Shown here one piece after another: positions 4,577-14,970 of a stretch of DNA of 18,441 nucleotides. This DNA is from Candidatus Delongbacteria bacterium (GTDB lineage: Bacteria; UBA4055): the NCBI GenBank assembly GCA_016937995.1, contig JAFGVM010000044.1:1-18441 (forward strand), read 5' to 3'. The notes beneath the pieces were generated by a model. The model saw only the letters and a program-made list of their open reading frames with translations. It searched no databases and was not told the origin of the DNA. The number at the start of each line of letters is the position of its first letter. Position 1 is the stretch's first letter. The translations under genes were made by a program, and so were the position numbers.

Positions 4577-4600
4577 ACTCATCACTTACCACTTATCACT
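4577..4600 (-). repeat. Degenerate heptamer repeat, copy A
   Basis: On the minus strand this holds three successive 7-base units of the type AGTGRTN, followed by a partial unit AGTTAT. It encodes the last residues (V-I-S-G-K) and the TGA stop of the 443-residue upstream gene. It then abuts the truncated kinase fragment. It belongs to the same family as the repeats at 10874-10907 and 17953-18037. Confidence 0.65.
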
Positions 4601-5913
4601 AGTCTATTGAACCAACTCTCCTTATCCTTCCGATATTCACTCGGTGTAGCGATCTTATAATCGTAAAAAACCGTTATCTGCCCATCGTAAATAGTCACAA
4701 CAGTAGCAAAATATGACAATTTGCTCTTATTTCTTCCGGTTATTAGCTCAATAGATCTCTTTTTATCAGGTGAAATTAAGGCTTCGGCTAAAAAAGATTT
4801 TATCCTTTCAGAACATATCCTCACGTCATCCGTGATCTCTATGAACTCATCCTCTGACATTTTCTTAACATTATCATCCTTGATAATAAAATCTGTCTTT
4901 GAGAATTTGATCGTATTAATACCTTGAGTTGTCGTTAATAGATCCTTTACAAAAGATCTTAAATGGATATTTTCAGTTTTCTTTGAAACATAGCTTCTAT
5001 TTACATCTTTTTCATATATATCGGCAGTCAGTAAAATTTCATCTTTTAAAATATCATACTCAAAACCGTTCCCGCTCCCGCAGAAAAATTCTTTAACTTG
5101 AGAGATATCGGTCTGTTTTATATCTTCTGAAACGTTAGAAACTGTTAATGTGTCTGTATCGGTTTGAACAACAGCAGCCACATCACCTGTTGTTGAAGCA
5201 GTATCTGCATTTACGATATTTTTGGACTCAACTACTTTGTTGTCAGCTATAGCTGTTGAGTGATCATTTAAAGAGTAGAACCAGTGATTCTTATCTCTAT
5301 AGGAATTTTTTCCAACGAAAACTCTGTAATCCGGATATAGTGTGAATTGCTTATCAAAAACTGTCAGCTTAGTTGAAAAATATGCAACCTGGTCAATACT
5401 TTTACCCCAGATCCACTCAATTGAACTTTTTCTCTCAGAGTTTAAAACAGTTGTCTCCAATATTTTTCTCAACATATCAGTATTTTTATACTCAGGATAT
5501 TTATCTAACTCCTTGTAAGTATTGTCCGCAAGATTTACCTTACCCGACCCGTTATCAAATTGTAATTTATTTATCCTGATTATCTTTGACCTTGCAATAA
5601 TTTCACTGATCAGATCTATCAACTCATCAATGGTCAGATACTTTTTTTCTCCGAACCTGAACTTTATTCCATGCAAATAATAGAAATCAACAGGGAAAGG
5701 TTCAAATAATTGCTTACTTTCCTCAAGTTGCTCAAGAACACCGGTCAGACCCTCTTTTCCAGTATCCGATAACATTTTACCAACAAGTTCATTTACAAGT
5801 AATGAATCATTTTTTAAATCTAGCAGTCTTTCTTCTTTTGTCTTTGAAAAACAGATTAGTGCGGGTAAAAGTATGAATACTATTAAATATTTTATGGGTT
5901 CTTTTCTATTCAT
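4582..5913 (-). CDS. Exported protein with internally duplicated domain, unknown function
   Basis: A 443-residue protein I do not recognise. Residues 8-22 are a hydrophobic export signal. The cysteine at 21 (ALICFSK) could be lipidated, but the lipobox is not canonical. The mature part holds two copies of a roughly 120-residue module (about 92-216 and 318-438). Each module has an N-terminal helix, an INKLQF/INTIKF strand, a helix, the motif RKSSIEWIWG or KKRSIELITG, then a YFSTKLTVFD or YFATVVTIYD strand, and ends in YRDKNHWF or YRKDKESWF. A T/S/D-rich linker (217-275) separates the modules. No ribosome binding site is seen before the ATG. It is still the only start that keeps the signal peptide. 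The last codons and the stop come from the heptamer repeat. A periplasmic binding or scaffold role is a guess. Confidence 0.75.
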   Translation of the reverse strand: MNRKEPIKYLIVFILLPALICFSKTKEERLLDLKNDSLLVNELVGKMLSDTGKEGLTGVLEQLEESKQLFEPFPVDFYYLHGIKFRFGEKKYLTIDELIDLISEIIARSKIIRINKLQFDNGSGKVNLADNTYKELDKYPEYKNTDMLRKILETTVLNSERKSSIEWIWGKSIDQVAYFSTKLTVFDKQFTLYPDYRVFVGKNSYRDKNHWFYSLNDHSTAIADNKVVESKNIVNADTASTTGDVAAVVQTDTDTLTVSNVSEDIKQTDISQVKEFFCGSGNGFEYDILKDEILLTADIYEKDVNRSYVSKKTENIHLRSFVKDLLTTTQGINTIKFSKTDFIIKDDNVKKMSEDEFIEITDDVRICSERIKSFLAEALISPDKKRSIELITGRNKSKLSYFATVVTIYDGQITVFYDYKIATPSEYRKDKESWFNRLVISGK

Positions 5914-6094: not shown

Positions 6095-6124
6095 AAAAAA
6101 AGCAGGTTATTAACCTGCTTTTTT
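6095..6124. terminator. Bidirectional intrinsic terminator
   Basis: An 8-bp stem, AGCAGGTT with AACCTGCT, and a 3-base loop, flanked by A6 on the left and T5 on the right. It therefore reads as a terminator on both strands. On the minus strand it lies directly after the stop of the HesB-like selenoprotein gene (6129). This supports the reading that the gene extends to that stop rather than ending at the internal TGA. Confidence 0.9.
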
Positions 6125-6128
6125 GTTT

Positions 6129-6440
6129 CTAACATGAACCCCCGAAGGATTCTTTCATCCTGATCGAGAAACCCGATCCGTAATATTTGTTCTCAGTATA
6201 ATCCAGCTTTGCTCCACCGTATCTACTCAAAAGTTTTTCACTCCGTGTATCTATGACAAAATCGATTTCCTCGATCTTTGTAATAATATCATCATCATGC
6301 TTTGAATCTAAGGCTATACCTAGCCTTGGACCACCTCAACCAACACCATCAATATAGACTCTTACATAAAGATCTTTATTTTCCGGTTTTGATAAAATGG
6401 AATTTACCTCTTGTAAAGCTGATTTTGTTACTTCTAACAT
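6129..6440 (-). CDS. HesB/IscA-like selenoprotein (in-frame TGA = Sec35)
   Basis: A 103-residue protein of the HesB/IscA A-type iron-sulfur carrier family, read through one in-frame TGA at 6336-6338. Translation around it gives YIDGVG-[TGA]-GGPRLGIALD. Family members usually carry the first cluster-ligand cysteine of the HesB domain at this position (GCGGP). A family of HesB-like selenoproteins with Sec here is known (TIGR01911). The frame before the TGA and the frame after it are both good HesB-like sequence, so this is not a degraded gene. Downstream conserved features include the DFVID strand, SRYGGAKLDY, the GSGFSI strand and a C-terminal GGSC, with C103 as the other likely ligand. A SECIS-like hairpin starts at the TGA. 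The gene has its own sigma-70 promoter (6476-6504) and a terminator right after the stop. The start is ATG at 6440, with TAGGT a short distance upstream. The Sec reading needs SelA, SelB, SelC and SelD elsewhere in the genome. Confidence 0.88.
6302..6338 (-). promoter_or_regulatory. Bacterial SECIS-like hairpin
   Basis: The RNA from the TGA onward folds into a hairpin. The apical stem is a perfect 7 bp, AAGGCUA with UAGCCUU (6310-6316 and 6321-6327), with the loop GGUA. The lower part can pair UGAG with UUCA (6335-6338 and 6302-6305), separated from the apical stem by an internal loop. About 15 bases separate the TGA from the apical loop. This spacing, and the GGU at the start of the loop, match what SelB needs in known bacterial SECIS elements. 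The stem lies inside coding sequence, as is usual in bacteria. Confidence 0.82.
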
Positions 6441-6551: not shown

Positions 6552-7826
6552 CTATATCGTATCAAACAGTTCTTTGAAAGAATCTATTTTCGAAACCTTT
6601 CTTTTCAATTTCGATTCAAGATCACTTACAGATAGATCATCCAGAAATAAATCGTTAAAATTCAAGCAGGTATCCGGTATAAGCAGGATATCAGAAGTTG
6701 AATTATTCTCTTGGACAGTATTTATAATATCATGACCTGAAAGAAGACCTGCTACAGTAATTTCACTGCCTAATAATTTGTTTTCTACCTTAAACAATTC
6801 AATCTGAAGATTTTTAATTTTACTTAATGCAGGAATAACATATTTGTTCATTATCGGATAGAAAGAGTATCCCGTTACTATTGTCACTTTTGTTTTCTTT
6901 TTCAATTTATCAGGAAATTCCTTAACATCCTCAAGGAATTGATCAATAAAGCTTCTTACCATACCTATACCGTCTTCATATTGCTGATAATCTTCATAAT
7001 AGTCATCTTCAGGTATCTCATAACCAGCTTTTAAAAAGAACTCATCTGCCGGGAACACAAACCTGGTACCCATTTCCTTGAAAAAGCTCTCCTGATAATT
7101 CGATATCTGATCTATGATCTTTTTTGCATCACTTTTTGTTACAGATCTGATATGGGGTAGATCATCTCTGTGCTTTGTTTTTCCGACCGGAACTACAGCA
7201 ATGGATGCAACATGAGGGTATAATTTCTTTAAGGTAAATATTGTCTCTTCAAGAATTTCACCATCATTAAGTTCGGGACAAAGAACTATTTGTGTATGCA
7301 TCTCGATATTATTCTTTGCAAGGAAAGTCATTTTACTGATTAGTCCGTCATCTTTTTTTATCCCAAGCATTTTCTTACGGATATCAGACCTTACTGCATG
7401 GACCGAAATATAAATCGGACTAAGCTTCATATCAGCTATTCTTTGTAATTCTTTATCTGTTGTTTTCGTTAATGTAAAGTAACTTCCGTCCAGAAAAGAA
7501 AGCCGGTAATCCTCATCCTTTACATACAATGATCTTCTGAGACCTTCAGGATTTTGAGTGACAAAGCAAAAAATACAATCATTACCGCAGTGCCTTACTT
7601 TAATTTCCTCGACCGTAATACCATTACTTCCACTTTCTAAAAATGTAACTATTTTGGTATTTTCTCTATTCGTGAAAGATATTTTTAATGGTTCGTCTGC
7701 CGAATAAAATCTAAAATCTAAAATATCATTGATCTCATGACCGTTAATACTATCAATTGAAAAAAGAGAAGAAATTCCAGCTTTATATGCAGGTGATCCT
7801 TTCTCTATTTTTATTATTTTTAACAT
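6552..7826 (-). CDS. PDZ-radical SAM protein, DUF512 family
   Basis: A 424-residue Fe-S protein of the COG1625/DUF512 group (TIGR03279-like). An N-terminal PDZ-like domain (about 1-65, with KGSPAYKAGISS) leads into a radical SAM core. Its cluster motif C80-x3-C84-x2-C87 lies within RHCGNDCIFCFVTQNPEG. Next come FLDGSYFTLT (110-119) and SPIYISVHA, and then the DUF512 C-terminal domain. The substrate of this family is unknown as far as I know. The start codon lies 6 bp after the purL stop, and its ribosome binding site (TTAGG) overlaps the end of purL, so the two are translationally linked. A terminator between this gene and the HesB-like gene is not clear. An A/T-rich imperfect hairpin near 6500-6530 is possible. 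Confidence 0.9.
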   Translation of the reverse strand: MLKIIKIEKGSPAYKAGISSLFSIDSINGHEINDILDFRFYSADEPLKISFTNRENTKIVTFLESGSNGITVEEIKVRHCGNDCIFCFVTQNPEGLRRSLYVKDEDYRLSFLDGSYFTLTKTTDKELQRIADMKLSPIYISVHAVRSDIRKKMLGIKKDDGLISKMTFLAKNNIEMHTQIVLCPELNDGEILEETIFTLKKLYPHVASIAVVPVGKTKHRDDLPHIRSVTKSDAKKIIDQISNYQESFFKEMGTRFVFPADEFFLKAGYEIPEDDYYEDYQQYEDGIGMVRSFIDQFLEDVKEFPDKLKKKTKVTIVTGYSFYPIMNKYVIPALSKIKNLQIELFKVENKLLGSEITVAGLLSGHDIINTVQENNSTSDILLIPDTCLNFNDLFLDDLSVSDLESKLKRKVSKIDSFKELFDTI

Positions 7827-7832
7827 TATCGC

Positions 7833-10667
7833 CTAATCGAAATACTTCGTAAAAGGTTCTTTCCAAAGTTTTTCCAGTTCTGAAATTTCCAGATCGATGA
7901 TCTTACCTTTATGATCGTTCACTATCGCTTTTGGAATCGATGTTGTAGTTCCGATCTGGACAGCCAACTCTGACTCTATCAATCTATCAGCAGCATTAAG
8001 ATCTTTCATTTCAAGAATAAAAGCAGCAGGAACTTCTGCAAATAAAGTCCTTACTTTATCTTTTACCTGAATGTTGAATCCTTTTTTGCCTGCGATTGCC
8101 ATTTCTATAAGAGTGATAATAGAACCGCCTTCACTGACATCTGAAGCTGATATTATATCACCTTTCTGAATTGACTCATATATCCTGTAAAAAATGTCCT
8201 TTGCTGTTTCCATTTTGATCTCAGGTACTCTGGTACCTAGCTGCCCAAGTCTTTCAGAGAAAATTGAACCTCCAAGAAAGGCCTGATTATAATCTCCCAT
8301 CAGCAATATCGGAGATCCCGCTTTTTTAAGATCCGGGGAAATAGTTTTTTTCCAGTCATCATTTACAGACCTTGCTGAAACACATACCACCGGAGGGACT
8401 TCTATGAAAATGTCTTTTGATTTATATGTCGAAGAAAGTGAATCTTTTCCGGAAATTATCGGTGTTTTGAAAAATTTACAGGCCTTTGTGAGAGCCATTG
8501 CAGATTTGTATAGATCTGAAAGGTTGGTCTCGGTAGGTTTCGGCCAAATATGATTTTCTATCATGAAAGTTCTGTCAGGATCCCCACCCAGTGCAATTAC
8601 GTTGCTCATAGCTTCATAATATGCCCAAAGTGAACCTGCATAAGAATCTATCCTGTTAAGAACCGGATTCAGACCGTGACCCAGAATCAATGCAGCATCT
8701 GAATTTGCTAGAGGTTTCATTACAGCCCCGCCGGTAGGGCCGTCATTATTCTTACCGCATAAAGGACCTTCAACACAAGTTCCCTGAACACCATGATCAT
8801 ATTGCCTTATTACAGGTTCTTTTGATGCTATATTTAAATGCGATATAATATCTTTTGTCGCTTCTTCGTAGTCTATCTCCTCTTCGTAATATTCCGCATC
8901 TTTCAATCCTTCTTTCTTGTATGTGGTTGCAGTAATAGTCTCAAGAGGTTGACCGTCATGTAAAAATTCCATATCCAGATCACATACCAGCTCACCATCA
9001 TCATAGATAGTCAGTCTTTTTGTGTCTGTAGCTTTACCGAGAACAAAATATTCAACATTATATTTTTTGCAGACTTTGTCTATTTTGTTTAAATGCTCTT
9101 CTGGTACAGTGGCTACCATCCTTTCCTGTGATTCAGAGATCCATTTTTCAAAAGATGAAAGACCTGGATATTTAAGTGGAATATTTTCGAGGTGTACTTC
9201 AGCACCTGTTTTCTCTCCCATCTCTCCCACCGCTGAGGAATAACCACCGGCACCACAGTCTGTCAAGGCTGTGAACAGGTCCATGTTTCTGAGTTCTATA
9301 AGACAGTCAAATGTTCTTTTTTCCTCAATGGCATTACCTATCTGAACCGCTCCACTGTTCAATTGGGATGTTTTCTCTGTCATTTCTGCTGATGAGAAAG
9401 TAGCTCCGTGAATTCCGTCCTGACCTGTTTTTCCACCGAAAGAAATGAAAAGATCTCCCTTTTTACACTGCCCTTTCTTTGCATATTTCAAAGGAATTAT
9501 CCCGTCCGCACCAACGAGAACTGTAGGTTTAGGACCAAAATCTTTATGAAAATGAAACGAACCGTTATTTGTCGGGATACCCATTCTATTCCCGTAGTCA
9601 CGAACCCCTTCTATCACTCCTGTAAGGATCCTTCTAGGATGTAAACATCCCGGAAGTACATCTTTTATATCCATATCAGGATCACCCAGGCAGAAGATAT
9701 TTATAGATGAAATGTTCTTTGCTCCCTTCCCTGTTCCCGCAATATCCCTGATCACGCCACCTGTGCCTGTCATAGCTCCACCGTACGGATCGAGTCCGGA
9801 AGGAGAATTATGGGTTTCAGCTTTTATACATATACCGTATTCAACACCGTCTGCTTCAGCGAATCTGAAAACACCTGAGTTATCCTCAAATTTTGAAATT
9901 ACATCTGGATGATTGATCTCTTTCTCAGCATCCCTCACAAGACCGATTATTGATCTTTTTTCCTGTCCATCAAGTATCACTTTTGCTTTAAAGGTTTTAT
10001 GCCCGCAATGCTCTGACCATGTTTGTGCCAGGGTTTCAAGTTCAACATCAAATGCATCTCTTCCCAATTTCTTATAATAATCCTTGATCGTTCTCATTTC
10101 TTTCAAAGTTAAAAAAAGCTTATAATCAGAAAGTTCCATCAACTCTTCATCTGTCATTGTTCTGATCGGAATTATCTGTGTCTTTTCTGAATGAAGATTA
10201 ACTAAAAGATTCTTAGGTGGTGCTAACAGTTCCATTTGTATCTGGGAATTCATCAATAACCTGTTCTTTATAGTTGAAAGTTCAACATCTGAAAGCTCAT
10301 TTATGAAACAATACGTAAAAGAAACTGCTGTAGCTTGCACTTTATATCCAGAATCAATAAGGTTATCATGAACCGTTTCAGCTTCAGGATTCATCACACC
10401 CGGCTGGAAAGCTATTTCAGTTCTTTTTGTATGATCTTTATAAAAATCATCATTGATCAAATATTCTTCCGTGATAGGGCATGCTAAAATATTTTTTGCT
10501 ATATCTGTTGCTTCTGTTTCAGACAGTCCCTGCAAGTAGAAATTTTTAATGATCTTCAAATGATGTATATCTGTATTAAGGAATTCTTTGATCTGGTGTT
10601 TAAAGTGCTTCTCTTTTGGATCACCCACTTTTGATATTACTGATATTTTTTGGATCTGAACAGGCAT
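7833..10667 (-). CDS. purL: Phosphoribosylformylglycinamidine synthase, PurS-PurL fusion type
   Basis: The ATP-dependent amidation step of purine synthesis: FGAR + glutamine + ATP to FGAM. I place the start at the ATG at 10667 (944 residues), because AGAGGA sits 6 bases before it. The in-frame ATG at 10700 (955 residues) has no ribosome binding site. The first 160 or so residues look like PurS-type domains fused to the synthetase. WSEHCGHK (217-224) and KAETHNSPS (282-290), followed by a GTGG-rich loop ending in IRDI, are the conserved ATP/Mg-binding motifs. GPTGGAVMKPL marks the second half. There is no C-terminal glutaminase domain, so a separate PurQ is expected elsewhere. The length falls between small PurL (about 750) and the large fused PurL (about 1300). 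The gene heads the operon with the DUF512 protein. Confidence 0.95.
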   Translation of the reverse strand: MPVQIQKISVISKVGDPKEKHFKHQIKEFLNTDIHHLKIIKNFYLQGLSETEATDIAKNILACPITEEYLINDDFYKDHTKRTEIAFQPGVMNPEAETVHDNLIDSGYKVQATAVSFTYCFINELSDVELSTIKNRLLMNSQIQMELLAPPKNLLVNLHSEKTQIIPIRTMTDEELMELSDYKLFLTLKEMRTIKDYYKKLGRDAFDVELETLAQTWSEHCGHKTFKAKVILDGQEKRSIIGLVRDAEKEINHPDVISKFEDNSGVFRFAEADGVEYGICIKAETHNSPSGLDPYGGAMTGTGGVIRDIAGTGKGAKNISSINIFCLGDPDMDIKDVLPGCLHPRRILTGVIEGVRDYGNRMGIPTNNGSFHFHKDFGPKPTVLVGADGIIPLKYAKKGQCKKGDLFISFGGKTGQDGIHGATFSSAEMTEKTSQLNSGAVQIGNAIEEKRTFDCLIELRNMDLFTALTDCGAGGYSSAVGEMGEKTGAEVHLENIPLKYPGLSSFEKWISESQERMVATVPEEHLNKIDKVCKKYNVEYFVLGKATDTKRLTIYDDGELVCDLDMEFLHDGQPLETITATTYKKEGLKDAEYYEEEIDYEEATKDIISHLNIASKEPVIRQYDHGVQGTCVEGPLCGKNNDGPTGGAVMKPLANSDAALILGHGLNPVLNRIDSYAGSLWAYYEAMSNVIALGGDPDRTFMIENHIWPKPTETNLSDLYKSAMALTKACKFFKTPIISGKDSLSSTYKSKDIFIEVPPVVCVSARSVNDDWKKTISPDLKKAGSPILLMGDYNQAFLGGSIFSERLGQLGTRVPEIKMETAKDIFYRIYESIQKGDIISASDVSEGGSIITLIEMAIAGKKGFNIQVKDKVRTLFAEVPAAFILEMKDLNAADRLIESELAVQIGTTTSIPKAIVNDHKGKIIDLEISELEKLWKEPFTKYFD

Positions 10668-10716
10668 GATATCCTCTGGATTATTATAAAGATGGTACAT
10701 TAATTTTCACAGGGAA

Positions 10717-12049: not shown

Positions 12050-12325
12050 ATGAGTGAAAAGATCAAACTTCCCGACGGATTCAGAAGCTGGGAAGCTGAC
12101 GTAAAGATCGGTAAGAAAGAAGACAAAGTGACTATCGGTCACTGGGCGGAAGGCTGCAAAGGATGTGCTATCTGTGTAGATGTGTGTCCTAAAAAAGTCT
12201 GGAAGCTTATCGAAGCAAAAAATAAATGGAATGGACAACTTGTAATTGTGGATAAACCGGATGCATGTATAAAATGTATGCTTTGCGAGATACACTGCCC
12301 GGATTTCTGTATAAAGATATTTTAA
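12050..12325 (+). CDS. korD: 2-oxoacid:ferredoxin oxidoreductase, delta (ferredoxin-like) subunit
   Basis: A 91-residue protein with two [4Fe-4S] motifs: C36-x2-C39-x2-C42-x3-C46-P and C73-x2-C76-x2-C79-x3-C83-P, plus C87. It is the electron-transfer subunit that passes electrons from the TPP/Fe-S core to soluble ferredoxin. The N-terminal 30 residues are a short extension. The order D-A-B-C with the three genes that follow is typical of 2-oxoglutarate:ferredoxin oxidoreductase clusters. AGGAAG precedes the ATG by a few bases. Confidence 0.92.
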   Translation: MSEKIKLPDGFRSWEADVKIGKKEDKVTIGHWAEGCKGCAICVDVCPKKVWKLIEAKNKWNGQLVIVDKPDACIKCMLCEIHCPDFCIKIF

Positions 12326-12350
12326 TTAAAAAAATTCACGAGGTAAAACC

Positions 12351-13484
12351 TTGAAGAAAAATATAAAATTTTACTCCGGAGCTGAATTAGTTGCAAAGGC
12401 AGCTATTGATGCAGGTTGTAGATTCTTCGGAGGATATCCTATCACTCCATCATCAGAGATCGCTGAACATATGGCTAAAGAATTACCTAAAGTTGGTGGA
12501 ACGTTCATTCAAATGGAAGATGAAATAGCAGCTATGGGTTCTGTAATAGGAGCATCTCTTGCCGGTAAAAAATCATTAACTGCTACAAGTGGTCCGGGAT
12601 TCTCTTTAAAACAGGAAAATCTGGGTTATGCCTATATGGCTGAAGTTCCTGTTGTTATTTGTAACGTTATGCGTGGCGGTCCTTCCACAGGTCTTCCGAC
12701 AGCCTTAGCACAGGCTGATATTATGCAGGCAAAATGGGGTACTCACGGGGATCATCCCGTTATTGCTTTAACTCCTGCATACTTAGAGGAAGTTTACGAA
12801 TTAACTATCAAAGCTTTCAATTATTCTGAGATATACAGAATACCTGTTATTCTTCTGCTTGATGAGTTGATAGCACACTTAAGTACTGCAATTGAACTAC
12901 CTGATAAAGACCTTCTTGTTATCAAGGACAGAAGAAAACCTACTGTGACACCTGATAAATATTTCCCTTACGATACAGCTTATGGTGATGTGCCACCTAT
13001 GGCTAATTTCTTTGAAGGATACCGTTATCATGTTACAGGTCTAAGTCACAACAAGACCGGTTTCCCTACAACAGACCCGGATCTTGTACAGGCAGACCAG
13101 GAAAGACATCTTAGAAAAGTAAATGCAAACAAAGGTAAGATAATAGACTTTGAATCATATAAAATGAAAGATGCTGATATTGTTGTATTTGCTTATGGTT
13201 CAACCTCAAGAGCGGCAAGGGTAGCAATTGATAATGCAAGAAAACTTGATATTAAAGTTGGTATGGTGAGATTAAGAGTGATCTGGCCTTTACCTGAAGC
13301 TGAAATATTGAAACTTTGCAGCAAAGTGAAAGCTATAATTGTTCCTGAGATGAATATGGGTCAGCTGAGTAATGTGATCGAAAAATATGCAGCGGACAGA
13401 ACAAAGATCGTAAGAATAAATCATGTTGGTGGAGTTCCTATCCACCCAAGTAACATACTTGACGTTATTAAGGAGGTGAGATAA
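12351..13484 (+). CDS. korA: 2-oxoacid (2-oxoglutarate):ferredoxin oxidoreductase, alpha subunit
   Basis: A 377-residue subunit containing the pyrimidine-binding half of the thiamine pyrophosphate site. GGYPITPSSE (27-36) and the EDEIAAMGSVIGAS segment (57-70) are the family's substrate and TPP contacts. TSGPGFSLKQENLGYAYMAE follows, and the C-terminal transketolase-like domain includes VPEMNMGQL. Translation starts at TTG at 12351. GAGGT lies 6 bases upstream, and no better start is available. Its last base overlaps the korB start by one base. Substrate preference (2-oxoglutarate versus branched-chain or pyruvate) cannot be proven by eye. The DABC order favours 2-oxoglutarate. Confidence 0.93.
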   Translation: MKKNIKFYSGAELVAKAAIDAGCRFFGGYPITPSSEIAEHMAKELPKVGGTFIQMEDEIAAMGSVIGASLAGKKSLTATSGPGFSLKQENLGYAYMAEVPVVICNVMRGGPSTGLPTALAQADIMQAKWGTHGDHPVIALTPAYLEEVYELTIKAFNYSEIYRIPVILLLDELIAHLSTAIELPDKDLLVIKDRRKPTVTPDKYFPYDTAYGDVPPMANFFEGYRYHVTGLSHNKTGFPTTDPDLVQADQERHLRKVNANKGKIIDFESYKMKDADIVVFAYGSTSRAARVAIDNARKLDIKVGMVRLRVIWPLPEAEILKLCSKVKAIIVPEMNMGQLSNVIEKYAADRTKIVRINHVGGVPIHPSNILDVIKEVR

Positions 13485-14335
13485 TGGCTTTTGATTATGA
13501 AAAGTATCTTCGAATGGACAAGATACCTCACCTTTGGTGTCCAGGTTGTGGAATAGGTGTAGTTTTGAAAGCAATGCTAAGAGCAATGGAAAATGTTAAC
13601 TGGGAAAGAAATGATACAGCATTCGTTTCAGGTATCGGTTGTACAAGTAGAGCTCCAGGATATATAGACTGTAATACCTTACATACTACTCATGGTAGAG
13701 GTCTGACTTTCGCTACAGGTATTAAAATGGCCCAACCAGATAAAAATCTTGTTATTTTTTCTGGTGACGGAGACGCAACTGCTATTGGTGGGAACCATTT
13801 TATCCATGCTTGCAGAAGAAATATTGACATGACCCTTATAGTTGTGAATAACAATATCTACGGAATGACAGGAGGTCAGCATTCTCCTACAACACCTATA
13901 GGCTTTAAAGCTAGTACGACTATATACGGTAATGTTGACCCTAGTTTTGATATTTGTCTTCTTGCAAGAGCAGCAGGAGCGACTTACGTAGCCAGGTCTA
14001 CTGTAAATAAAGGTAGAACTCTAGAACAGTATATTCAAAGAGGATTTGAGAATAAAGGTTTTTCTGTGATCGAAGCTGTTTCCAACTGCCATACTCAGTT
14101 CGGAAGAAAAAATAATATGAGCGATCCTATTTCATCCAGAAAATGGATAGAGGACAGGGAGATCCCTTTAGCTAAAGCCAGAGATATGAAAGCTGAAGAC
14201 CTGAAGAACATGGTGATCACTGGTGAGTTCATCACAGAAAAAAGTGATCTTGAAAGATGGGAAAACTATAACAGAGCCGAAAAAGAATATACTGAGGCTT
14301 ACAGCGATATTATCAAAAAAGTGAAAAAAAAATAA
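13484..14335 (+). CDS. korB: 2-oxoacid (2-oxoglutarate):ferredoxin oxidoreductase, beta subunit
   Basis: A 283-residue TPP-diphosphate and Fe-S binding subunit. WCPGCGIG (18-25) supplies C19 and C22, and C53 in SGIGCTS is the next cluster ligand. A cysteine in AVSNCHTQFG (about 206) is the likely fourth. GDGDATAIGGNH (94-105) and VNNNIYGMTGGQ (121-132) form the TPP/Mg site. The start ATG overlaps the korA stop (TAATG) and is preceded by AAGGAGGTGAG, a strong ribosome binding site, so the subunits are probably made in equal amounts. Confidence 0.94.
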   Translation: MAFDYEKYLRMDKIPHLWCPGCGIGVVLKAMLRAMENVNWERNDTAFVSGIGCTSRAPGYIDCNTLHTTHGRGLTFATGIKMAQPDKNLVIFSGDGDATAIGGNHFIHACRRNIDMTLIVVNNNIYGMTGGQHSPTTPIGFKASTTIYGNVDPSFDICLLARAAGATYVARSTVNKGRTLEQYIQRGFENKGFSVIEAVSNCHTQFGRKNNMSDPISSRKWIEDREIPLAKARDMKAEDLKNMVITGEFITEKSDLERWENYNRAEKEYTEAYSDIIKKVKKK

Positions 14336-14361
14336 TTCTGAAAACTACTTGGAGATAAATA

Positions 14362-14970
14362 ATGAAACAAAGCCACTATGAAGCCAGATTTGCGGGAGTT
14401 GGAGGTCAGGGTGTTATACTTGCAGGCAAGATATTAGCTTATGGTATGGTTAATTTTGAAGAGTGTCAGGCTATTCAAACACCTACATACACTGCTCAAG
14501 TAAGGGGTGGTGCCACAAAAGTAGACGTTGTTCTGGATAAAAAACATATCGAATATCCACGGACTGAGAATATTGACTTCTTCCTATCATTACATCAGAA
14601 ATCTTTCGATATTTACTTTAAAGATCTTAAAGATGATGCTATTGTTGTAGTTGATCCTAATCTTACACCGAATATTCCAAAAGACATTCCGCAGCAGGTA
14701 TTTCTTGTCGATCTTGTTGAGATCGCAAAAAAAGAGATGGGAAAAGCACTTTACGCTGCAGTTTTAGCTGTCGGGTTCTTTGCCGGTATCACAAAAATGA
14801 TAAAAGAGAAGAACGTCCAGAAATCAGTGATCGATAATTCCCCTAAAGGAACCGAAGTTGAGAATCTGAAAGCTGTTAAAATAGGATACGCTTTAGCGAA
14901 AGAAGCATTGAAAAGAAAAGAGGATCTTGTTCGTTTAACTCTGAAAGATATCGATAAGAACAAACTATAA
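14362..14970 (+). CDS. korC: 2-oxoacid:ferredoxin oxidoreductase, gamma subunit
   Basis: A 202-residue gamma subunit. FAGVGGQGVILAGKILAYG (11-29) is the family's glycine-rich N-terminal motif. QTPTYTAQVRGGATKVDVV (39-57) is the second conserved block. The catalytic core of the enzyme is thus complete: alpha, beta, gamma and the ferredoxin-like delta. The gene starts 26 bp after korB, with TTGGAG upstream of the ATG, and is followed after 19 bp by ndk. Confidence 0.93.
   Translation: MKQSHYEARFAGVGGQGVILAGKILAYGMVNFEECQAIQTPTYTAQVRGGATKVDVVLDKKHIEYPRTENIDFFLSLHQKSFDIYFKDLKDDAIVVVDPNLTPNIPKDIPQQVFLVDLVEIAKKEMGKALYAAVLAVGFFAGITKMIKEKNVQKSVIDNSPKGTEVENLKAVKIGYALAKEALKRKEDLVRLTLKDIDKNKL

Follow-up and report, generated by a model that had tools for sequence, protein, structure and literature searches.

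The gene at positions 6129–6440, on the minus strand of the window (the whole 18,441-nucleotide stretch of Delongbacteria DNA analysed here), very probably encodes a genuine HesB-like selenoprotein, with an in-frame TGA read as selenocysteine (Sec). Its product is probably an Fe-S carrier, a role that is less certain than the nature of the gene. HesB-like selenoproteins were first reported in 2005–2006 (PMC1242214, PMC1794560), with 11 Sec members of the family listed (PMC1794560). A 2026 review gives the HesB-like protein in its Table 1, with the motif UxGP and the model TIGR01911 (PMC13188914), in agreement with the original prediction that a HesB-like family with Sec at the first-ligand position is already known. 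Judged by sequence comparison, the gene described here belongs to a divergent clade of this published kind.

The read-through frame starts at an ATG (6440–6438), ends at a TAG (6131–6129) and has 103 codons before the stop. Its sole interruption is the TGA at 6338–6336, which is codon 35, and reading the frame thus bears out the single broken frame that had been proposed. The length of open frame around the TGA is weak evidence: of the 888 TGAs in the window, 3 have as much open frame on either side (34 codons or more ahead, 67 or more behind), and the other two are antisense to ileS. What goes beyond chance is the homology, which runs on across the TGA. The profile NF038090 (IscA_HesB_Se) matches the read-through product at 3.5e-18 and 65.8 bits, with residues 1–103 aligned on positions 1–99 of 101, so that HesB-like sequence does lie on both sides. 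Under the standard code the UGA would be a true stop, giving a peptide of only 34 amino acids and a remainder that is separately started. This is highly improbable, since a single domain spans both sides of the UGA and since both halves are conserved, together with the hairpin described below.

NF038090 is the best full-length match, but its curated cut-off is 85 bits, and the best score in the phylum is 72.3, so that none of the 12 copies found there reaches it. TIGR01911 (HesB_rel_seleno) matches the read-through protein at 4.3e-11 and 43.3 bits, against a curated cut-off of 66.35. The match to TIGR00049 (2.9e-12) is likewise under the curated cut-off, and the Pfam match is under the gathering score. 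The profile searches suggested at the outset therefore did give matches, with NF038090 the closest, but not a score above the TIGR01911 cut-off. Because the whole clade scores below the cut-offs of both TIGR01911 and NF038090, it is regarded here as a divergent new member. A search of the window's genome with the TIGR01911 profile found only this locus, with "1 TGA" inside. The Sec motif is UGGP, which fits UxGP at the first-ligand position. A pattern search of genome contigs for forms with Cys spelled at the Sec column returned only Cys forms from Metaclostridioides, and a search of viral contigs found no relative of the gene.

The conservation of the Sec codon was analysed in 13 genomes of the phylum, all from one family. 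The gene is present in 10 of them, in a total of 12 copies, and the codon is TGA in 11 of these. The twelfth copy, in G002, is a tandem paralogue with TGT (Cys), directly upstream of a TGA copy. A check for homologues with neither Cys nor Sec in this column therefore came down on the side of the prediction, since the codon is TGA in ten genomes and the paralogue has Cys. A profile alignment with PDB sequences puts residue 35 opposite Cys35, the first ligand of E. coli IscA, and opposite its counterparts in HI1723 and AQ_1857, which is where the TGA had been expected to fall. Between the window and its congener G012, dN is 0.15 and dS 0.81 ahead of the TGA, and 0.17 and 1.27 beyond it, and on these rates both halves are under purifying selection.

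A single base change would suffice to turn the TGT or TGC of an ordinary Cys gene into TGA, either in a pseudogene or through an error in an assembly that is split into 99 contigs. This explanation was rejected and its probability is minute: independent genomes share the TGA, which stands in 11 copies from ten genomes assembled separately and is surrounded by synonymous differences, selection has acted on either side, and the genome contains Sec machinery. A sequencing error at the TGA would also have to be repeated in the separately assembled genomes of other species, and is very unlikely.

Two further arrangements were seen within the set. The Cys and Sec versions of G002 lie in tandem at L017 1501–1830 and 1855–2175, 24 bases apart. 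In G003 (L021 303–614) there is a second TGA after the terminal Cys, where the relatives end; it is probably an ordinary stop, in which case UGA would serve as both Sec and stop within one gene.

The window's genome (G000) is 97% complete, in 99 contigs. The original prediction called for a check of its Sec machinery, and all four components were found, each over its cut-off: selA (549 bits), selB (334 bits), selD (354 bits, with an in-frame TGA of its own) and a tRNA-Sec with the anticodon TCA (UCA). In the phylum selA is present in all 13 genomes and selD in 12 of 13, with a TGA inside in 11 of those 12; the match in G007 is partial only. A frame that reads through TGA would also be seen if the codon had been reassigned genome-wide (code 4 or 25), to be read here as Trp or Gly. 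This too was rejected, because TGA stops other genes: it ends 2 of the 16 genes in the window, and the recoding in the HesB gene is therefore local. The presence of tRNA-Sec(UCA) and SelB, and the Cys aligned with this residue in the paralogue and in IscA, argue in the same direction and leave reassignment with a negligible probability.

Decoding of UGA codon 35 as Sec would then be carried out by SelB and tRNA-Sec(UCA), and steered by a hairpin at 6308–6329 (minus strand), a putative bacterial SECIS with the stem AAGGCUA/UAGCCUU and the apical loop GGUA, which starts 16 nt downstream of the UGA. Bacterial SECIS elements share a G in a small apical loop (PMC1088965), and all 11 TGA copies have a hairpin with a G in the apical loop at SECIS distance, although in the three copies from genus g7 it is a shorter variant, GGGC-GUC-GCCC. 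In the window, 98% of synonymous recodings of the hairpin region are less stable than the natural sequence. The same comparison gives p values of 0.001–0.07 for most of the other TGA copies, and in G003 the hairpin is no more stable than the recodings (p 0.74); at the same position the Cys paralogue folds no better than chance (p 0.66). Codons 39–41 are always AGG-CTA-GGT in the eight copies with the common hairpin, which come from five genera. This is a codon identity of 1.00, compared to a mean of 0.34 at other invariant amino acids (permutation p = 0.002), for codons and copies that were selected after the alignment had been seen; over residues 38–44 in all 11 copies, including those of g7, there is no excess (0.46 vs 0.51). 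Covariation is weak, with no double changes, and carries no information, as the stem is almost invariant. RNAalifold run on all 11 copies gives a poor mixed consensus because g7 has a different hairpin, and Rfam at gathering thresholds gave no match in the window or the selB locus.

The structure of the product was predicted using AlphaFold2, with a pLDDT of 87.7. The best Foldseek matches of the model are IscA (E 1.6e-6) and SufA (E 1.4e-5), and the sequence identity of the structural matches is 14–36%. The protein is thus predicted to have the A-type fold. Its predicted ligands are only Sec35 and Cys103, which is conserved and is the last residue, in contrast to the three-Cys set of a Cys close to residue 35 plus a CxC at the C-terminus. 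The CxC tail of IscA is cut to one terminal Cys, and the classical three-Cys set is therefore unavailable within one subunit. The copies linked to a DUF512 gene (see below) have short tails, in which the one Cys is the last residue or lies beside it, while the homologues in G001 and G002 keep Cys-rich tails. G001 and G002 are also the only genomes with SufBD. It is absent from the other 11 of the 13, where the scaffolds, if any are present, are only of the IscU/NifU type. A search of G000 did not find SufBD but identified two NifU_N proteins, and no A-type protein besides the HesB selenoprotein was found in that genome. The organism would appear to live anaerobically, as we infer from 2-oxoacid:ferredoxin-oxidoreductase-like genes at 12050–14970, whose translations were read by eye.

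We therefore very probably have a Sec-containing protein of the A type, as originally predicted from the sequence and now supported by the conserved TGA and the machinery; the Fe-S or redox role that was predicted with it is one that we infer. We favour a mechanism in which the product takes the fold of an A-type Fe-S carrier, with Sec in place of the first Cys ligand, and would use Sec35 and Cys103 to hold or pass on iron or an Fe-S cluster, supplied by the IscU/NifU-type scaffolds of an anaerobe. An alternative shares the selenoprotein part of this explanation and differs on function: Sec is inserted, but into a redox or metal(loid)-handling protein that uses Sec-Cys selenenylsulphide chemistry and is no Fe-S carrier. 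The missing CxC tail is consistent with this, as Sec and the terminal Cys form a possible redox pair, and uncharacterised selenoproteins are mostly thought to be redox-active (PMC13188914). The loss of the gene is also tolerated in G004. However, the A-type fold and ligand position are retained, no other A-type protein was found in G000, and the tails of the G001 and G002 homologues are still rich in Cys. A redox function is thus possible but rather unlikely, and the carrier is the reading that we retain.

The gene was originally described as bracketed by a promoter and a terminator. The terminator holds up well: directly 3' of the gene, at 6096–6124 (minus strand), is an intrinsic terminator with a 13-bp stem and a U-tract (-14.8 kcal/mol, z -5.55). 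The promoter does not, with 4 promoter-like matches against 4.0 expected by chance. The neighbouring genes are on the same strand. Upstream is a PDZ/radical SAM/DUF512 protein, TIGR03279-like (6552–7826), preceded by PurL (7833–10700); downstream is a conserved protein of 443 amino acids with no assigned function and no Pfam match (4582–5913). The order PurL, DUF512 protein, HesB(Sec), conserved unknown is kept in eight other loci of the phylum (L019, L021–L027), and in G001 and G002 the HesB gene is located outside the DUF512 block. In G004, which is 95% complete and keeps selA and selD, HesB is absent and the genes for the DUF512 protein and the conserved unknown are 11 bases apart (L040 1256–1268). 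This clean absence indicates that the gene can be lost.

DUF512 is a cobalamin-binding domain. Proteins with PDZ, radical SAM and C-terminal cobalamin-binding DUF512 domains have a known structure but no known substrate, and their PDZ cleft may bind a C-terminus (PMC11659888). The adjoining enzyme is a candidate client for the HesB protein, although a partnership between the two is a guess from gene order, and a search of the literature found no paper with both DUF512 and a selenoprotein. A further reading is conceivable, if improbable: in this phylum the selenoprotein would as a rule be the sole A-type carrier, and its DUF512-linked, short-tailed form with a single Cys would work specifically with the PDZ-radical SAM-cobalamin enzyme, whose Fe-S cluster or redox state it might serve, perhaps with its C-terminus held in the PDZ domain.

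HesB-like selenoproteins have been on lists for twenty years, and their function is still to be demonstrated. The present clade is a useful test case, with a genome (G000) where no A-type protein other than the Sec form was found, a Cys/Sec pair side by side (G002), a relative that has cleanly lost the gene from this very site (G004), and a conserved neighbour of a solved structure type (DUF512). It is worth adding that the fixed cut-offs of curated models miss the whole clade, and such genes are therefore likely to be truncated or dropped in annotation. The finding itself is a modest one, being well supported, unsurprising and useful mainly as a test system.

NF038090 gives the protein its best full-length match, but the protein stays outside the curated limit, as does the whole clade. 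The carriers IscA, SufA and ErpA (1r94, 1x0g, 2d2a, 2apn) share its fold and first-ligand position, whereas here Sec replaces Cys at residue 35 and the CxC tail is missing. It differs from the HesB-like selenoproteins of TIGR01911 in its score, in its DUF512-linked locus and in its tail, which is short and has its one Cys at the end, and yet it resembles them in the A-type fold, in Sec at the first ligand within a UxGP motif, in the SECIS-like hairpin, and in belonging to an organism with the full Sec trait.
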